DNA from: an uncultured Pelagibacteraceae bacterium
GTDB lineage: Bacteria; Pseudomonadota; Alphaproteobacteria; Pelagibacterales; Pelagibacteraceae
DNA length: 64,000 nt
Reading direction: 5' to 3'
Assembly (NCBI GenBank): GCA_902556905.1
Contig: CACDYK010000007.1
Span: forward strand, 1-64,000
Both the position numbers and the translations under genes were made by a program. Of this stretch, positions 20,208-57,150 are shown piece by piece. The notes beneath the pieces were generated by a model. It ran no database searches and was not told the origin of the DNA. It saw only the letters and a list, made by a program, of their open reading frames with translations. Each line of letters begins with the position of its first letter. Within the stretch, counting starts at the first letter, position 1.

Positions 20208-21068
20208 TTAAGATTTTTCATATGATAATTCCTCTAATTTTTTTTTAAAAATATTATTTAATTTATCTTTAAGATCATCATTTAGAATTATTTTCCAATT
20301 ATTTTTTGGACCTAAGTTAAAAAAAGGAATTTTTTTATCTCCAAATTTTGACTTTGGTGATTCTGAAAAACCCTCATTTTTTTCTTTTTCTTTTAACTTT
20401 GAAAATGATGTTGAGCCAATGGCATTTTTAATTTTATTCTTATTTATTTTTTCTTTGCTTTTAGTAGTCTGATTAATAAAAGTAATTACTTCAGTTAATA
20501 CTTTGTAAGTTTGATTTAGTAAATCCTCATATCTAATTATCTTAATTGGTATTTTTTTTTGAATTTTCCATGACTCAAAATTTGTGTCCCATGAACTGAT
20601 AAATTGAAAATCACTATACCCATCTTTTTCAAACTTATTAACATCATATATGTATTGGTTTTTATTTGTTATCCATTTAAATGCCTGATCATCATTCATT
20701 TCATAAAAGTTTTTAAGTGAAGTAATCACATTTCTTGGGTCTCTAACAACATAAATACAACCGATAGAGTTTTCTTTATTAGTAAAATCAAAATTATTTA
20801 ATGCCCCAAATGCATTATGAGTTTTAAAAAATCTTAATTTTTTATCTTGATTAATTTTTTCTTGAGCTTTTATCCAAAATTTTATTGTATCAGTAACAAC
20901 TTTAGGGTCATAATTGAATTCATTAAAAAATTTTTTTTGTGGAAATTGATCAATATTTTTTAAAACACTTTCATCATAAAAACCATCTTTAGTATAATAA
21001 TATGATGATAGTAAAATTCTAAGCCATGTATTTCCACTTTTAGGGTAAGATGTAATCCAAAATATCAT
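20208..21068 (-). CDS. sulfotransferase domain-containing protein (paralogue 1)
   Basis: 5'-PSB motif 'WITSYPKSGNTWLRILLSSYYY', 3'-PB motif 'VRDPRNVITSL', 'RYEDLL'. Confidence 0.88.
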   Translation of the reverse strand: MIFWITSYPKSGNTWLRILLSSYYYTKDGFYDESVLKNIDQFPQKKFFNEFNYDPKVVTDTIKFWIKAQEKINQDKKLRFFKTHNAFGALNNFDFTNKENSIGCIYVVRDPRNVITSLKNFYEMNDDQAFKWITNKNQYIYDVNKFEKDGYSDFQFISSWDTNFESWKIQKKIPIKIIRYEDLLNQTYKVLTEVITFINQTTKSKEKINKNKIKNAIGSTSFSKLKEKEKNEGFSESPKSKFGDKKIPFFNLGPKNNWKIILNDDLKDKLNNIFKKKLEELSYEKS

Positions 21069-31341: not shown

Positions 31342-32202
31342 TTATAAATAACCCAATTCTTCCATTTCTCTTTTGAGTGAAACTTCCAATTTTTCCTTTA
31401 TTGTAGCTGGCAAAGTCTCGGGGGTATTAACTTTAGGACCATATTTAAAAAAAACAATTTTTTTATTATTTTGAATGTTTACTGACTCTTGAAAGCCTTT
31501 GTTTTTTTCTAAATTTTGCATGTATTCAAAAGTTGTTGTTTTTAAAATATTTTTTAATTTTTTTTCATCAATTGAAATTTTTGTTTTTGCTAATTTATGT
31601 ACAAATTTAAGGATAGACAAAAAGACTTTTTCTTTATTATTTATTAAATCCTCATATTTTATAAGAAGATAACGATCAAATTTCTTAAATACTTTCCAGG
31701 ACTCGTAATTTAATGACCAGGAGTTCATATGAGTTATTACTTTATCTACATCATTAGTTGAATTTTTAATCCCCCCTAATGTTGCTCCATATTCCAACAT
31801 TCTATTTGATGCCCTCTCTAATGTCATTTGATTGTGATTAGCATATGATTTTACAACACTTCTTGGGTCACGAACCATATATATTACACCTAAAGAATTC
31901 TTTAAATTGGTAAATTGATGACCGTTAATATCTGAAAGTCCACTGTGAGTTTTAATAAATCTTACTGAGTTTTTATCTTTTTTATTAATTTTGTTTTGTA
32001 CATTTATATAATTTTTAACAATTTCAATCTGATCAGAAATGTTAACTCCATAATTTTCAAAAAGTTTTAAATCTGGAAATTGGTTTATTTTTTTAATAGT
32101 ATCAAAATTGAATTTTCCATCCTCAGTAAAAAAATATGCTGAAAGCATTGATCTTAACAATGTGTTTCCACTTTTAGGATAGGATGCTAACCAAATAATC
32201 AT
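31342..32202 (-). CDS. sulfotransferase domain-containing protein (paralogue 2)
   Basis: MIIWLASYPKSGNTLLRSMLSAYFF, VRDPRSVVKSYA, KYEDLI. Confidence 0.88.
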   Translation of the reverse strand: MIIWLASYPKSGNTLLRSMLSAYFFTEDGKFNFDTIKKINQFPDLKLFENYGVNISDQIEIVKNYINVQNKINKKDKNSVRFIKTHSGLSDINGHQFTNLKNSLGVIYMVRDPRSVVKSYANHNQMTLERASNRMLEYGATLGGIKNSTNDVDKVITHMNSWSLNYESWKVFKKFDRYLLIKYEDLINNKEKVFLSILKFVHKLAKTKISIDEKKLKNILKTTTFEYMQNLEKNKGFQESVNIQNNKKIVFFKYGPKVNTPETLPATIKEKLEVSLKREMEELGYL

Positions 32203-32207
32203 TAAAA

Positions 32208-33062
32208 TTACAAATATTCCAATTCTTTCATTTCTTTTTTAAAAGCTTTTTCTATTTTTTTTACTATTTCTAAGTCTAATAATTTTTTCCATTCATTTTT
32301 CGGTCCCAGATTAAAGAAAGGTATTTTTTCTTTTGTTACTATGTTAATTCGTGCCTCCTCAAATCCCTTTTCTTTTTCTAAATTCTTCATATTTTCAAAG
32401 TTAGTTGATAGAATAACATTTTTTATTTTGGTCTCATCAATTTCAAGGTTAATATTTCTAAGTTTATAAATAAATTTTAAAATTTTTTTTAAATTTTCCT
32501 CTTTATTGAAAATTAAATCTTCGTATTTAATTAGTAAATATTTCCTATTAGACTTAAATGACTTCCAGCTATTAAAGTTACCACTCCATGTACCTGTATA
32601 AGTTTTCATTATTTCTTCTATTTTATTGCTATTTGACACTCCACCTATATATGGCGATTGAGTCAGGTGATCTGTGGCTTTAGTTATTGAGATATCTAAA
32701 AAATTTGCCAGCGAAGTAACAACATTTCTAGGATCTCTAACAATATAAATTACTCCAAGAGTATTATTTAAATCAGTAAAGCCACTGCCTTCAATATTAA
32801 AAAGATAACTATGTGTTTTCAAAAATTGAGTTGAATTTTTTTGATTGATAGATTCTTGAACTTTAATGTAATTTTTAATTAACTCTTTTTCATTTTTTAT
32901 ATCAAAACCAAGTGATTCGAATAAAGGTGCATGAGGAAACTGTTTTATATTTTTTATTAAATCAAAATTAAAAATTCCATCTTTAGAAAAAAAGTATGAA
33001 GCCAACATCGATCTAACTAGGGTGTTTCCACTTTTTGGATACGAGGCTAACCAAACAAACAT
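32208..33062 (-). CDS. sulfotransferase domain-containing protein (paralogue 3)
   Basis: MFVWLASYPKSGNTLVRSMLASYFF, VRDPRNVVTSLA, KYEDLI, PFFNLGPKNEWKKLL. Confidence 0.88.
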   Translation of the reverse strand: MFVWLASYPKSGNTLVRSMLASYFFSKDGIFNFDLIKNIKQFPHAPLFESLGFDIKNEKELIKNYIKVQESINQKNSTQFLKTHSYLFNIEGSGFTDLNNTLGVIYIVRDPRNVVTSLANFLDISITKATDHLTQSPYIGGVSNSNKIEEIMKTYTGTWSGNFNSWKSFKSNRKYLLIKYEDLIFNKEENLKKILKFIYKLRNINLEIDETKIKNVILSTNFENMKNLEKEKGFEEARINIVTKEKIPFFNLGPKNEWKKLLDLEIVKKIEKAFKKEMKELEYL

Positions 33063-37128: not shown

Positions 37129-37712
37129 TGTTGAGTTTTTAAATATTCTTTAATTTTTAAGACGGGTAATCCCATTATAGTATCTTCATCTCCAGAGATA
37201 CTTGAAAATAAATTTCTTCCCTCCCCTTCTATTTGATAAACGTTATAAGCATATAAGGTTTCGTCAGGTATTTTTGATAAATAAATTTTTAAATCTTCAT
37301 CTGTGAAATTTTTCATTGTTAACTCCGCTTTTTCAGTATAATTCCAAATCATTGAGCCATTTTTTGAAATACAGACAGAGCTTATCAAATGATGTTTTTT
37401 TCCATTAAGTTTTTTTAAGATTATTAAAGCTTTTTCTCGACTTTCGGGTTTCGAAATTAATTCATTATCCAAATCTATTACACTGTCAGCACCCAGAACT
37501 AGTTGATCTCTTTGACTTAAACTAACTTTATTAGCTTTTAATTCAGCCAAATTTTTCGAGATAATTTCTGGCGAAGCTAATTCTTTAGTGAGACTTTCTT
37601 TAACAACATCTTCGTCAACGTTTGATGGCTTAACTTCACAGGGTAAATTGTGTTTTTCTAATATTTCTTTTCTAACTTTACTCTTGGAAGCAAGAATAAT
37701 TTTATCTGACAT
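37125..37712 (-). CDS. maf: Maf family nucleotide pyrophosphatase
   Basis: ILASKSKVRKEIL, VLGADSVI, YNVYQIEGEG, MGLPVLKIKEYL. Confidence 0.94.
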   Translation of the reverse strand: MSDKIILASKSKVRKEILEKHNLPCEVKPSNVDEDVVKESLTKELASPEIISKNLAELKANKVSLSQRDQLVLGADSVIDLDNELISKPESREKALIILKKLNGKKHHLISSVCISKNGSMIWNYTEKAELTMKNFTDEDLKIYLSKIPDETLYAYNVYQIEGEGRNLFSSISGDEDTIMGLPVLKIKEYLKTQQ

Positions 37713-38529
37713 TGTTTAAATATATTTCGTGTATTTTTATTATTGAAGCAGCAGTTTCTTCTACTGATTTTCTAGTAACATCAATTGATGGCCATTTATA
37801 TTTTTGAAAAGTCTTTTTTGCGTCTATAATCTCTTTTTTTATATTTTTTATATTTGTATATTTTATATTTTCAGTCTCTTTTAAAGAAGTCATTCTATTT
37901 TTTCTTAAATCAACTAAGCGTTCTGGCTCTGTGTTTAAACCCACAACACAAGTTAATTGCGGATTATCTCTGAGTTTTTTTGGTAAAGAGTTTTCATTTA
38001 CAAGTGGTATATTTGAAGTTTTAAAGCCTTTGTTAGCTAAATAAATTGATGTAGGTGTTTTACTTGTTCTACTAACGCCAACTAAGATAATATCTGATTT
38101 TTCTATATCATTTACTAAATTTCCATCATCATGGTTCATTGTAAATTGTATAGCTTCAATCCTTTCATAATATTCATCATTAAGAGCATGTTGTCCGCTT
38201 GGTTCATGAGAAGCTTTTTGATTTAAAATTTTAGAAAAATTTAAAATTAAATTTCCTAATACACCAAAACATGGGATTTTTTTATCCTCACTTACATTGG
38301 CTAAATATTTTGCTAAGTTGTTGTCCACTATAGTATAGAGAATTACTGAATTTTCATTTTTTTTAGCATCTTCTAAAATTTTAAGAATTTGGTTTTCAGT
38401 CCTTGTGAAGGAATAAGAGTGTACTTTATATTTAATATTTTTGAATTGAGCTTTTAAGGCTAAAAAAATTCGATCAAGCGTTTCTCCTGTCGAGTCAGAT
38501 ATGAGATATATTTGATATGTATTGCTCAT
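37702..38529 (-). CDS. ppsR: pyruvate, phosphate/water dikinase regulatory protein (DUF299)
   Basis: IYLISDSTGETLDRI, HEPSGQHALNDEYYERIEAIQFTMNHDDG, VGVSRTSKTPTSIYLANKG. Confidence 0.95.
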   Translation of the reverse strand: MSNTYQIYLISDSTGETLDRIFLALKAQFKNIKYKVHSYSFTRTENQILKILEDAKKNENSVILYTIVDNNLAKYLANVSEDKKIPCFGVLGNLILNFSKILNQKASHEPSGQHALNDEYYERIEAIQFTMNHDDGNLVNDIEKSDIILVGVSRTSKTPTSIYLANKGFKTSNIPLVNENSLPKKLRDNPQLTCVVGLNTEPERLVDLRKNRMTSLKETENIKYTNIKNIKKEIIDAKKTFQKYKWPSIDVTRKSVEETAASIIKIHEIYLNNVR

Positions 38530-38801
38530 GAATAAATTGTTAATAAATTTGTATTATTTTAATAAAATTACTCAATTTAAATATTGGTTAATAATCATTG
38601 TAAAATAAGGGTTTTATTAACATTAATAAATTAATGAATAAAATTATACAATTTATTGAATAAATATTTAAAAAGCTTCAATTTTATCAATATTATTAAA
38701 CAATAATTGTGATTAACTTGTTAATAAAATGTTTAAAAATACTTATCATCATTATTCACAATACATAATACTAATACAATAAATATATATACTATTTTAA
38801 T
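38530..38801. other. candidate chromosomal replication origin (oriC)
   Basis: AT-rich divergent intergenic region next to hemE; four GTTAATAA copies (both strands), CtrA-like TTAA-N7-TTAA at 38577-38591, perfect CATTAATAAATTAATG palindrome at 38621-38636, DnaA-box-like TTATTCACA at 38752-38760. Confidence 0.6.
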
Positions 38802-39809
38802 ATGACACCTCTTCACGAAGTAATAATAAATAAAAATACAAAAATAAATCCAATATGGATAATGAGACAAGCTGGAAGATATCTCCCTGAATTTAGAGAG
38901 ATTAGAAAATTAAATCCAGATTTCATAAAGTTATGTTTAGATGAAAATCTATCGTCAGAAATTACTTTACAACCTTTAAAAAGGTTTAATTTAGATGCTG
39001 CAATAATTTTTTCAGACATTTTAATTTTACCATATGGCTTAAATCAAAAAGTAGAGTTTGAGAAAGGCTTTGGTCCAAAACTTGGAGAAGTAAATATAAA
39101 TGAAATGTCTAAATTAGATAAAGTTGATTTTGTTCAAAAAATTTATCCAGTTTATAAAGCAATTCAAAAAGTAAGCTCAAACAATATTATAAAAAATAAA
39201 AATAAAAATACCATAGGTTTTGTGGGTGCGCCTTGGACTTTATTGGTTTATATAATTAATCAACAATCTCCTAAAAAAAAATTAAAAGAAAATTTTTTCA
39301 AAAATGATTTTTTAATAAACAGAATTTTATTAATTCTAGAAAAATTTTTAAAAATACATATTAAAAATCAGATTGATAATGGTGCTAATGTAATACAAAT
39401 TTTTGATAGTTGGGCAGGATTATTAGAAGAAAAAGATTTACCAAATTATGTTTATTCACCAACTTTGAATTTGGTTAATTATGTGAAATCATTAAATACC
39501 CCAGTTATTTGCTTTCCTAGAGAAATCAAAAACTATAAAGAATTTTGTGACATTGTTAAACCAGATGTGGTTGGTATTGATTATAATGTTGATCCGAAAA
39601 AAATTTTACAAGATATAAAAATTCCAGTTCAAGGCGGGCTTGATCCCAAAATATTACTTACAGACACAGAAACTATCAAAAAAGAAACAATAAAATATTT
39701 AGATATTTTTAAAAATCATCCTTATATCTTTAATTTAGGCCATGGTGTTTTGCCTGAAACAGATCCTAATATGTTTGAATACATGGTAAATACAGTAAAA
39801 AACTATTGA
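38802..39809 (+). CDS. hemE: uroporphyrinogen decarboxylase
   Basis: PIWIMRQAGRYLPEFREIR, FVGAPWTLLVYI, FDSWAGLL, VQGGLDPKILL. Confidence 0.97.
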   Translation: MTPLHEVIINKNTKINPIWIMRQAGRYLPEFREIRKLNPDFIKLCLDENLSSEITLQPLKRFNLDAAIIFSDILILPYGLNQKVEFEKGFGPKLGEVNINEMSKLDKVDFVQKIYPVYKAIQKVSSNNIIKNKNKNTIGFVGAPWTLLVYIINQQSPKKKLKENFFKNDFLINRILLILEKFLKIHIKNQIDNGANVIQIFDSWAGLLEEKDLPNYVYSPTLNLVNYVKSLNTPVICFPREIKNYKEFCDIVKPDVVGIDYNVDPKKILQDIKIPVQGGLDPKILLTDTETIKKETIKYLDIFKNHPYIFNLGHGVLPETDPNMFEYMVNTVKNY

Positions 39810-42609: not shown

Positions 42610-43485
42610 TTAAATATAATTAAGTTTTTTCATTTCTTTAGAAAAATTATTTTCAATCTGTTTTGTTAAATTTTCTGGTAGAACATTTTTCCAACTTTTT
42701 TTCTTACCTTTTCTAAAAAATTTTTTTTGTTTGTTGTTAATTTTAAATAATTTTTTTTTAGTATCATCTAACCAATCGTCATTTTCATCAAACCCTTTTT
42801 TATTTTCTAAATACCTTAATTTATTAAAATCACATTCATTAACAACTCTTGCTACTTTATCTTCATCAATTGTGATTTTATTATTTAAAAATTGATTAAT
42901 AAAAATAATTGTACTTCTTAATATTCCTGCTGTGTCTTTAAGTAAATCTTCATATCTGACTAATAATCTGGGTGCTGGAAAACTAAGCCACGAAACTAAA
43001 TGCGTTTTCCATGATAATCTAGCTTCAGGATAATATTTATCATTAAAAGATATTCTATTTTCATTGAACAGTAAACTTACAGATTCTTCATAAGATATAT
43101 CTGCAAATGAAGCATATGATACCGCCACATCTCTGGGGTCTCTTACTATATAAATTGACCCAATTGTATTTTGTTTATTTGTAAATTCATAACCATTTGA
43201 TGAACCACAAAAATTATGTGTTTTAATAATATGTAAATTTGGATCTTTATTTATTTTTTCTTGTGCTTTTATAAAATATTCATAAGCACCTAGTTTATTT
43301 TTAATTAAATAATCTTCATCTATTATACCTTTAAAGGCAAATTTCTTGGGAAAACTTTTTATAATTTTCATTTTTGAAAAAACATCTTGATTTTCATCAT
43401 GGTATTGATCAAATAAATAACAAGATAACAACGCTCTCATCCAAGTATTTCCACTTTTTGGATATGAGGCAAGCCACATAATCAT
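42610..43485 (-). CDS. sulfotransferase domain-containing protein (paralogue 4)
   Basis: MIMWLASYPKSGNTWMRALLSCYLF, VRDPRDVAVSYA, RYEDLL. Confidence 0.88.
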   Translation of the reverse strand: MIMWLASYPKSGNTWMRALLSCYLFDQYHDENQDVFSKMKIIKSFPKKFAFKGIIDEDYLIKNKLGAYEYFIKAQEKINKDPNLHIIKTHNFCGSSNGYEFTNKQNTIGSIYIVRDPRDVAVSYASFADISYEESVSLLFNENRISFNDKYYPEARLSWKTHLVSWLSFPAPRLLVRYEDLLKDTAGILRSTIIFINQFLNNKITIDEDKVARVVNECDFNKLRYLENKKGFDENDDWLDDTKKKLFKINNKQKKFFRKGKKKSWKNVLPENLTKQIENNFSKEMKKLNYI

Positions 43486-46853: not shown

Positions 46854-47518
46854 TGGATCAAGAAATTTTAAAATCATATTCAAGATTAAATGGTTTAAAT
46901 GTTTCACGTGAAATATTTTTAGACTTTGAAAACTATATATCCATGATTATTGAAAAAAATAAAAAAATTAACATAATCAGCCAAAATACATCATCAAAAA
47001 AGACTATATTTGAACGTCATATTGTTGATTCTGCACAAATCATTGATTTTGTTGACTTTAATAGCAATACAACCACAGATTTAGGATCTGGAGCAGGTTT
47101 TCCGGGGATTGTAGTAGCAATTATACTCAAAAATATGAAAAATAATATGGACGTGCATCTTTATGAAAAAAGCTACCATAAAAGCCGTTTTTTAAAAGAA
47201 GTTTCTGAAAAACTAAATTTAAATACAAAAGTTTTTCAAAAAAATATTTTTGAAGTAAAAAATTTAGAAACAGGTACGGTTATGTCAAGAGCATTCAAGC
47301 CAATGCCAGTGGTTTTAGATTTAGTTTATGAAAATTTTTCCAAATATAAAAATTTAATATTTTTTATGGGCAAGAGTGGAAAAAAAATATTTCAAAAATC
47401 TAAAGATGATTGGAGTTTGGAATATGTAGAAAAAAAAAGTTTAACTAATGAGGATTCATTTTTATTAAATATAAAAAAAATTAGTAAGAAAAATAAAAAA
47501 AGATATAAGAAAAACTAA
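46853..47518 (+). CDS. rsmG: 16S rRNA (guanine(527)-N(7))-methyltransferase RsmG
   Basis: NIISQNT, ERHIVDSAQI, DLGSGAGFPGIVVAI; between mnmG and parA. Confidence 0.93.
   Translation: MDQEILKSYSRLNGLNVSREIFLDFENYISMIIEKNKKINIISQNTSSKKTIFERHIVDSAQIIDFVDFNSNTTTDLGSGAGFPGIVVAIILKNMKNNMDVHLYEKSYHKSRFLKEVSEKLNLNTKVFQKNIFEVKNLETGTVMSRAFKPMPVVLDLVYENFSKYKNLIFFMGKSGKKIFQKSKDDWSLEYVEKKSLTNEDSFLLNIKKISKKNKKRYKKN
46900..46915. promoter_or_regulatory. parS-like centromere site
   Basis: TGTTTCACGTGAAATA differs from the canonical parS TGTTTCACGTGAAACA at one position; lies immediately upstream of parAB. Confidence 0.85.
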
Positions 47519-48313
47519 ATGCAAATTATTTCAGTAATAAATCAAAAGGGTGGGGTAGGAAAAACAACAACCGTTATAAATTTAGCTGCTGGATTAACTC
47601 AACTTAATAAAAAAATTTTAGTTATTGATTTAGATCCTCAAGGAAATGCCACTACGGGTCTTGGATTATCTAACGTAGACAACTCAAGTGATACAATTTA
47701 TGGTGTACTGAATGGAACTAGACAGATTAATGAGATAATCAAGAGGACACAGTTTGAAAATTTAGATATTATCACCTCTAATGTAGATCTGTCAGGACTT
47801 GAGGTAGAAACGGCTGACGATAGTAATAGAGCATTCATATTAAAGGCTAAATTAACCGCTTATTTAAACAATTCTAGAGGATTATACGACTATGTGTTGA
47901 TTGATTGTCCGCCTTCCTTGAGTCTTCTAACGGTTATGGCGCTCGTCTGCTCAAACTCACTTCTAGTACCCTTGCAAACAGAATTTTTTGCTCTAGAGGG
48001 TTTAACCCAATTAATGAAAACTATTGAAAGGATAAAAGTAAGTTTAAATCCAGATTTAAAAATTCGAGGGATCCTTCTGACCATGTATGACAAAAGAAAT
48101 AAACTTTCTTCACAAGTTGAAAAGGAAGCTAGAGATTATTTTCATGAAAAAGTCTATTCAACTGTAATCCCAAGGAATGTGAGATTGTCTGAGGCACCCT
48201 CACATGGAATGCCAGTTTTAATTTATGACAAATCTTGTCCTGGTAGTAAATCCTATTTTAGTTTTACCGATGAATTTATAAATCAAGAGTCAATAATTGG
48301 GAGTGCTGCATAA
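47519..48313 (+). CDS. parA: chromosome partitioning ATPase ParA
   Basis: IISVINQKGGVGKTTTVINLAAGL, DLDPQGNATTGLG, YVLIDCPPSLSLLT. Confidence 0.97.
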   Translation: MQIISVINQKGGVGKTTTVINLAAGLTQLNKKILVIDLDPQGNATTGLGLSNVDNSSDTIYGVLNGTRQINEIIKRTQFENLDIITSNVDLSGLEVETADDSNRAFILKAKLTAYLNNSRGLYDYVLIDCPPSLSLLTVMALVCSNSLLVPLQTEFFALEGLTQLMKTIERIKVSLNPDLKIRGILLTMYDKRNKLSSQVEKEARDYFHEKVYSTVIPRNVRLSEAPSHGMPVLIYDKSCPGSKSYFSFTDEFINQESIIGSAA

Positions 48314-49155
48314 TGGATAAAATTAAAAAGGGTCTTGGAAGAGGTTTATCATCGCTAATTGGTGAAACTAAAGTAGAGGTTCAAAAAAACCAATTACCAG
48401 TAAGCGACTTAATACCCAATAAATACCAACCAAGAAAAAATTTTGATGAGGTAAACTTAGAAGATTTAACAAATTCTATAAAAGAAAGAGGAATTATTCA
48501 GCCGATCATAGTTAGAAAATCAAATAGTGAAAATTCAAAATTTGAAATAATTGCAGGTGAGAGAAGATGGCTAGCGGCACAGAGAGTGGGTATTCATAAT
48601 GTTCCTGTAGTAATCACAGAGGCAGATGATCTAAAATCTTTAGAATTTGCAATTGTTGAAAATGTTCAAAGACATGATTTAAACCCACTAGAAGAAGCCC
48701 AAGGTTATAAAAAATTAATTGATGAATTTTCTTATGATCAAGAAAAAGTATCAAAATTTATAGGTAAAAGTAGAAGCTATATAGCTAATTCATTAAGAAT
48801 ATTAACTCTACCAACTGAAGTTATAAAACTAATAGAGACACAAAAATTAACTGCAGGTCACGCAAAAATTTTAGTTGGATTAGAAAATGCATCTTTTGTT
48901 GCAAATAAAATTATTGAAAAAAAATTATCTGTAAGACAAGCAGAAAAATTTGTTCAATTATTTAAAAAGAACAGACAAAATTCAAAGATAACAAAAGATA
49001 CAAATATTATTGCTCTTGAACTTTCAGTATCAAATAAAATAGGATTAAATGTTGAAATTCAAAACAGTAAGAGAAATAAAGGAAAAATCTCCTTTGAATA
49101 TAAAGATCTAGATCAGTTAAATAAAATTATAGATATAATTAAATCTAACTATTAG
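48313..49155 (+). CDS. parB: chromosome partitioning protein ParB
   Basis: KGLGRGLSSLIGE, YQPRKNFDEVNLEDLTNSIKERGIIQPIIVR, AGERRWLAAQRVG, ENVQRHDLNPLEEAQGY. Confidence 0.97.
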   Translation: MDKIKKGLGRGLSSLIGETKVEVQKNQLPVSDLIPNKYQPRKNFDEVNLEDLTNSIKERGIIQPIIVRKSNSENSKFEIIAGERRWLAAQRVGIHNVPVVITEADDLKSLEFAIVENVQRHDLNPLEEAQGYKKLIDEFSYDQEKVSKFIGKSRSYIANSLRILTLPTEVIKLIETQKLTAGHAKILVGLENASFVANKIIEKKLSVRQAEKFVQLFKKNRQNSKITKDTNIIALELSVSNKIGLNVEIQNSKRNKGKISFEYKDLDQLNKIIDIIKSNY

Positions 49156-56083: not shown

Positions 56084-56574
56084 AAAATTTTTATTTTTGA
56101 ATTTTTTTCAAGTAATTTTAGTAAAATCAAAAAATCTTTTTCTTTCAAAGCAATGCATCCATCTGTTGGTTTATAATTATTAGTTAAGTGAATAAAAATA
56201 CAACTACCTTGACCAACAATGGGTTTATTAAAATTATACTTAATTGGAATTAGGAAATCATATTTATGATCTTTTCTTCTTAACTTTTCGTGTCCGATTC
56301 TTTCTTCTATCTTAGAAAGCCTGTTATATTTTTTTGGATAACGAACATCATCACACCAACCCATATCTTCTTTAATTTCAATACATTTTAGTAAAGTTGA
56401 AGGCTTTTCTTTACGATCTTTCCTAAAATAGAGATTTTCAATTTTAAAGGTTCCTTTTGGTGTTTTTTTATCTCCCTCTTTTTTATTCCTTGTTGAGCCA
56501 TTTTTTCCAATACAACACTTAAATTTAAATTCATCTACTTGAAGAGTGTGTTTATTTTTTACAAAAATTGTCAT
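56080..56574 (-). CDS. L,D-transpeptidase family protein (YkuD-like)
   Basis: CCIGKNGSTRNKKEGDKKTPKGTFKI, CIFIHL....PTDGCIAL. Confidence 0.9.
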   Translation of the reverse strand: MTIFVKNKHTLQVDEFKFKCCIGKNGSTRNKKEGDKKTPKGTFKIENLYFRKDRKEKPSTLLKCIEIKEDMGWCDDVRYPKKYNRLSKIEERIGHEKLRRKDHKYDFLIPIKYNFNKPIVGQGSCIFIHLTNNYKPTDGCIALKEKDFLILLKLLEKNSKIKIF

Positions 56575-56586
56575 ATTCTCTTTTCT

Positions 56587-57150
56587 GTGAGCACACAGTA
56601 TTTAATAATATATAAGTTTACCTCATTATTTCAAATTCTTGAAGAACTTGGTTCAGATTTAAATTTTAAGATCACTTTTGTAGATAGTAATAAATCTCTA
56701 AACGATAAAGTAAAAAATCTTAATAATTATTTAATTATATCTAATAAAAAATATTCAGACATTGGTAATCAATTTATTTTAGACAATACACCAATTAAAA
56801 TTTTTAAATTAATGGAAAAGATAAATATTGAATTTTTAAAATTACAATTCAACAGTCAGTCTGAAGTGAAAATAAGCAATTATATTATAGATCTAAATTC
56901 AAGAGAAATGTGTAAAAATAATACAAAGCTAAAATTGACTGAAAAAGAAATTAATACAATTAATTATTTATCAAAATCAAACAAGCCGGTTAGTATTGAT
57001 GAATTACAAGAAAAGGTGTGGAGCTATCAATCTGACATAGAAACTCATACTGTTGAGACTCATATTTATCGATTAAGAAAAAAATTTTTAAAAACCTTTA
57101 ATGATAATGAATTTATTATTAGTAAAAAAAATGGCTATCAAATCAAATAA
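56587..57150 (+). CDS. OmpR-type winged-helix regulator with degenerate receiver domain
   Basis: C-terminal wHTH 'IDLNSREMCKNNTKLKLTEKEINTINYL...HTVETHIYRLRKKF....ISKKNGYQIK'; GTG start at 56587. Confidence 0.82.
   Translation: MSTQYLIIYKFTSLFQILEELGSDLNFKITFVDSNKSLNDKVKNLNNYLIISNKKYSDIGNQFILDNTPIKIFKLMEKINIEFLKLQFNSQSEVKISNYIIDLNSREMCKNNTKLKLTEKEINTINYLSKSNKPVSIDELQEKVWSYQSDIETHTVETHIYRLRKKFLKTFNDNEFIISKKNGYQIK

Follow-up and report, generated by a model that had tools for sequence, protein, structure and literature searches.

Does the intergenic gap between ppsR and hemE in a SAR11 genome hold the chromosomal origin of replication and, if so, is that origin a reduced one? The window analysed here, a 64,000-nucleotide stretch of DNA from an uncultured Pelagibacteraceae bacterium, contains such a gap, for which the earlier note had proposed an origin that was reduced or divergent, with a single DnaA box among copies of a non-DnaA repeat, GTTAATAA. 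Few kinds of cell on Earth are as abundant as SAR11 bacteria, which are hard to manipulate, and a precise origin anatomy would provide an anchor for peak-to-trough growth estimates from ocean metagenomes. We found no published account of SAR11 oriC anatomy in the open literature; predictions in DoriC or other databases may exist. Here we report that the gap is very probably the chromosomal oriC of this SAR11 (Pelagibacteraceae) genome, as had been proposed, an identification based on where the gap lies, on the conservation and spacing of its sites, and on skew and strand bias. The oriC is well supported and ordinary in kind. It is not reduced: about six conserved putative DnaA sites, rather than one, are found in the gap (Table 1). 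We hold with high confidence the whole explanation, in which about six DnaA sites in a ppsR–hemE oriC would lead to strand opening beside hemE.

Table 1. Features of the ppsR–hemE locus and its surroundings. For DnaA sites, percentages show how many of 40 dereplicated genus loci match TTATNMACA with at most 1 mismatch.
Feature	Position	Strand	Details
ppsR (COG1806/DUF299), left boundary gene	37702–38529	−	NCBIfam NF003742, 301.9 bits (cut-off 225)
oriC candidate, ppsR–hemE intergenic region	38530–38801		272 bp, 87% AT; gap length, skew, strand bias
DnaA box TTATTAACA, holds GTTAATAA copy 1	38538–38546	−	75% within 1 mismatch
CtrA-like TTAA-N7-TTAA	38577–38591		Kept in 5 of 40 relatives
GTTAATAA copy 2 (TTATTAACC), probably incidental	38586–38594	−	5% of relatives within 1 mismatch
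DnaA box TTATTAACA, holds GTTAATAA copy 3	38614–38622	+	85%; reads TTATTCACA in 4 of 40
Degenerate DnaA-like TTATTCATT, decayed here	38633–38641	−	Box intact in half of relatives (50%)
Tandem array box 1, TTAATCACA	38708–38716	−	68% within 1 mismatch; 11-bp pitch
Tandem array box 2, TTATTAACA, holds GTTAATAA copy 4	38719–38727	−	57%; 11-bp pitch
Tandem array box 3, TTTTAAACA	38730–38738	−	78% within 1 mismatch; 11-bp pitch
Inverted DnaA box TTATTCACA, exact consensus	38752–38760	+	93%; 22 bp after array box 3
Conserved 3-bp-periodic element	38765–38780	+	Columns 90–100% conserved; right of last box
Putative AT-rich unwinding segment before hemE	38777–38801		Composition and position beside last DnaA box
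hemE, right boundary gene	38802–39809	+	TIGR01464 equivalog, 312 bits (cut-off 303)
parS-like site TGTTTCACGTGAAATA	46900–46915	+	1 mismatch to parS pattern used; 8.1 kb from origin
parA	47519–48313	+	ParA-family matches to ORF upstream of parB
parB	48313–49155	+	Domain TIGR00180, 192 bits

The genes on either side provide the first indication. The origin proven in Caulobacter and the one predicted in Rickettsia both have hemE and a COG1806 gene as neighbours (PMC1914354). An intergenic position between these two genes and an AT content above the genome's average are characteristic of the alphaproteobacterial oriC class, and the gap has both: it is 87.1% AT against 71.5% for the window, and at 272 bp it is the largest gap there (median 2 bp). 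Its length is held to 258–289 bp across 128 family loci, comprising 104 distinct gaps from the genus (261–285 bp) and 24 further loci, and ppsR and hemE are adjacent in five of six sampled genera of the same family. In genus g5 (L261, L262), hemE is a divergent form with only about 32% identity and is located at a distance from ppsR, which gives the impression of a replacement. None of the genomes searched in the sister family f2 (L196–L208) yielded a ppsR; hemE is preceded there by a gene that reads as maf, and in some members the gap still carries DnaA boxes and CTACTACTACTA-type elements. Searches of the 272-bp gap gave no Rfam match and no GANTC (CcrM) site. A further conserved short block, TGTAAAA at 38599–38605, falls outside the DnaA-box explanation.

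The parAB genes with a parS-like site close by, also pointed out previously, are borne out: TGTTTCACGTGAAATA adjoins parAB and sits inside the gene directly upstream of parA. Also around the origin are four ORFs (20208–21068, 31342–32202, 32208–33062 and 42610–43485) that, by eye, share N-terminal SYPKSGNT-type motifs and resemble sulfotransferase-like paralogues.

Because the window is contig 7 of a genome assembled in 42 contigs (1.28 Mb), skew was computed instead on complete relatives of the same genus, of which G012 (1,343,202 bp) was read whole and G086, G088 and G090 were sampled at about 30%. Cumulative GC skew in G012 bottoms out at 1.291 Mb and peaks at 0.616 Mb, with the ppsR–hemE gap at 1.262 Mb, inside the 1.23–1.31 Mb supported by a third-codon likelihood model. 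The likelihood support also spans the gap in G086 (1,308,759 bp; support 270–400 kb, gap at 336 kb) and in G090 (880–1000 kb, gap at 910 kb), and the GC-skew shift that marks alphaproteobacterial origins is found in these three genomes. The skew check suggested for the locus thus agrees with it in G012, G086 and G090 and says nothing in G088, where GC skew is uninformative and the locus is favoured by strand bias but not by the likelihood. Gene-strand bias optima fall 0–30 kb from the gap in all four complete genomes. GC skew is weak in the genus and resolves the origin to about 50–100 kb only.

Within the gap, the four copies of GTTAATAA lie exactly where they had been reported (38539–38546, 38587–38594, 38614–38621 and 38720–38727), and they are indeed far above chance, with 0.12 expected and none of 5,000 dinucleotide shuffles reaching four; across the whole window there are 15 copies against 8.9 expected. 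What did not hold is the description of the repeat as unrelated to DnaA. Three of the four copies read TGTTAATAA; its complement, TTATTAACA, is one substitution (at position 6) away from the DnaA box TTATNCACA, and the aligned columns of the TTATTAACA sites in relatives read TTATTCACA, TTATAAACA or TTATCAACA. The repeat arises because most boxes carry A, not C, at position 6 (TTATNAACA). Alignment of relatives, put forward as a test of GTTAATAA, shows copies 1, 3 and 4 to be conserved and copy 2 not. The single DnaA-box-like TTATTCACA recognized at the outset is correctly placed at 38752–38760.

Over 50 dereplicated loci, TTATNMACA (A or C at position 6) occurs 145 times, against 9.2 ± 3.1 expected, divided between 107 copies of the A form, TTATNAACA, and 38 of the C form, the exact TTATNCACA, for which 1.7 would be expected. 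Several DnaA boxes, beyond those of other regions, are typical of alphaproteobacterial origins; the gap holds the densest cluster in the window (5 boxes with at most one mismatch versus 0.4 expected), which is unique there, and in G012 one coding-region cluster (1,324,348) has more one-mismatch boxes than the gap. Box columns are conserved at 0.84, compared with 0.66 elsewhere, and rank first among 272 rotations. Avoidance of TTATTAACA genome-wide, as a sign of DnaA binding, was not seen, there being no depletion (70 copies versus 65.9 expected). Separately, CATTAATAAATTAATG, described before as a perfect palindrome, consists by inspection of two inverted 7-bp arms around AA; neither strictly palindromic nor present in more than 1 of the 128 orthologous gaps, it was rejected as an origin element.

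The boxes are also regularly spaced. Those in the same orientation lie mostly 11 or 22 bp apart, an inverted box follows at a distance of 22, 33 or 44 bp, and A-form and C-form sites fall in one common 11-bp register. The arrangement of a box and, 22 bp away, an inverted box recurs in 40 of 50 dereplicated family loci, whereas none of 100 shuffles gave more than 6. Tandem pairs at 11 bp occur in 26 of the 50 loci, compared with at most 2 in shuffles. The window fits this family layout exactly, with starts at 38708, 38719 and 38730 on the minus strand and then 38752 on the plus strand.

These alignments bear directly on the view that GTTAATAA is a distinct, non-DnaA element of a reduced origin with one DnaA box, which we consider very improbable. 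The predominance of A at position 6 speaks for it, as does the status of A-form recognition by DnaA, which is predicted only; against it, the aligned positions are TTATTCACA in other species and the two forms keep to the same 11-bp register. As a separate motif, GTTAATAA was rejected on the alignment of relatives.

The putative reader of the boxes, DnaA, is present in SAR11 with its RDHTT recognition motif intact. Among the DnaA domain IV sequences read (loci L209–L238, L185–L187), all 31 genus proteins have FSNRDHTT and two of sister family f2 have FGGRDHTT, as do E. coli and B. subtilis, and the FSN/FGG turn adjoins the DNA-recognition residues. One speculative idea, which we judge unlikely, is that SAR11 DnaA and its box co-evolved to an AT-richer code, the FSN turn going with A-form TTATNAACA boxes; should FSN enable efficient reading of TTATNAACA by DnaA, the DnaA-box specificity would have shifted. 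The f2 origins weaken the link between FSN and the A form, since TTATNAACA occurs there too (15 to 6 across 13 partly redundant loci).

We propose that DnaA would occupy about six sites, the strongest being the consensus TTATTCACA at 38752–38760 and most of the others being A-form sites with A at position 6, which are predicted to be weaker. As the three tandem sites have an 11-bp pitch, about one helical turn, DnaA molecules bound to them would all sit on the same side of the DNA; the inverted box, 22 bp beyond the third site, would direct the DnaA filament towards the AT-rich segment near hemE, where the strands would open. Both the binding at each site and the place of opening beside hemE are predictions from the sequence.

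To the right of the last box, a conserved element has adenines at 38767, 38770, 38773, 38776 and 38779 (each 90–100% conserved) and NAN triplet runs longer than in 300 of 300 shuffles. The rule for a DnaA-trio element asks for three or more 3′-NAN-5′ trios no further than 16 bp from a DnaA box (PMC8287927). The element at 38765–38780 may be such a trio, the −10 of the hemE promoter (TACAAT, 38775–38780) or both; assignment as a trio is ambiguous because, in the window's family, the polarity known from B. subtilis trios would put the conserved adenines on the other strand and because the likely hemE −10 overlaps. Some f2 loci have CTACTACTACTA after a box, an arrangement like that of the DnaA-trio in C. 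difficile. The 272-bp fragment is a candidate for an oriC plasmid, and its regular 11-bp array of AT-shifted boxes would make DnaA site-finding testable in a very AT-rich, streamlined and probably CtrA-less genome.

It is very improbable that the gap is only a divergent promoter/operator of ppsR and hemE, with GTTAATAA a transcription-factor site and the origin at another place no more than tens of kilobases off, such as near dnaA. Two divergent genes do share the gap, with 9 promoter-like hexamers against 5.7 expected; as both promoters lie within it, they could explain part of its conservation, and the coarse resolution of skew leaves room for a neighbouring origin. However, the sequence of the sites is that of DnaA boxes in which C and A are exchanged at one position across species, and a transcription-factor site fits poorly with the excess of exact TTATNCACA. 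In G012, dnaA lies about 64 kb from the gap, and skew favours it less (delta log-likelihood of about 6 at 1.20 Mb versus 2.2 at 1.26 Mb).

Regulation of the origin by CtrA in the manner of Caulobacter, where CtrA at TTAA-N7-TTAA would block DnaA, is barely credible: the motif is about twofold in excess over 50 loci (29 versus 13.7 in shuffles), but of 40 relatives only 5 retain the copy in the window, at least 7 of 26 genus-level sites lie inside tandem boxes and five SAR11 genomes gave no CtrA match over the model cut-off of 350 bits (best match 133). The CtrA-like box noted at 38577–38591 is exact in position and not conserved, and part of the mild excess arises because GTTAATAA repeated at 11 bp itself spells TTAA-N7-TTAA. 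Two regulators that were checked had PhoB or OmpR as their best matches; the CtrA model is a Rhodobacterales one, which makes the absence of CtrA from SAR11 likely rather than proven. The window also encodes, at 56539–57150, an orphan protein resembling winged-helix response regulators, in which the receiver domain is degenerate or missing and which matches the MtrA/RpaB/PhoB type weakly. Of the CtrA-binding sites associated with alphaproteobacterial origins, the gap thus has one, unconserved; not all elements of the class are required, however, and some members are without CtrA sites (PMC1914354), so what falls here is the CtrA-regulated origin and not the oriC.

Set beside known systems, the ppsR–hemE oriC resembles Caulobacter crescentus Cori (hemE–CC0001) in its hemE/COG1806 flanks and AT-richness (PMC1914354) and in having several DnaA boxes, many of them weak (PMC1914354; reference list of PMC4285127). 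Unlike Cori, the SAR11 gap is without conserved CtrA sites or GANTC, apparently in a genome without CtrA, and in place of TGATCCACA G-boxes it has TTATNAACA/TTATTCACA boxes in tandem at an 11-bp pitch. The Rickettsia prowazekii origin, predicted from DnaA, CtrA and IHF sites (PMC1914354), is similar in its hemE–COG1806 neighbours and its AT-rich, low-GC genome. It differs in its CtrA sites, which are unconserved in the SAR11 gap. In E. coli oriC, the 3′ side of the strong R1 box faces the AT-rich segment, and low-affinity arrays are closely spaced and in register. The SAR11 locus likewise pairs a predicted strong box facing an AT-rich segment with predicted weaker boxes in register, in a different gene context and array layout. 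Although the putative trio is degenerate in the window's family, with its conserved adenines on the opposite strand, the locus shares with the basal unwinding system of B. subtilis and C. difficile a 3-bp-periodic element no more than 16 bp after a box (PMC8287927, PMC7561715).
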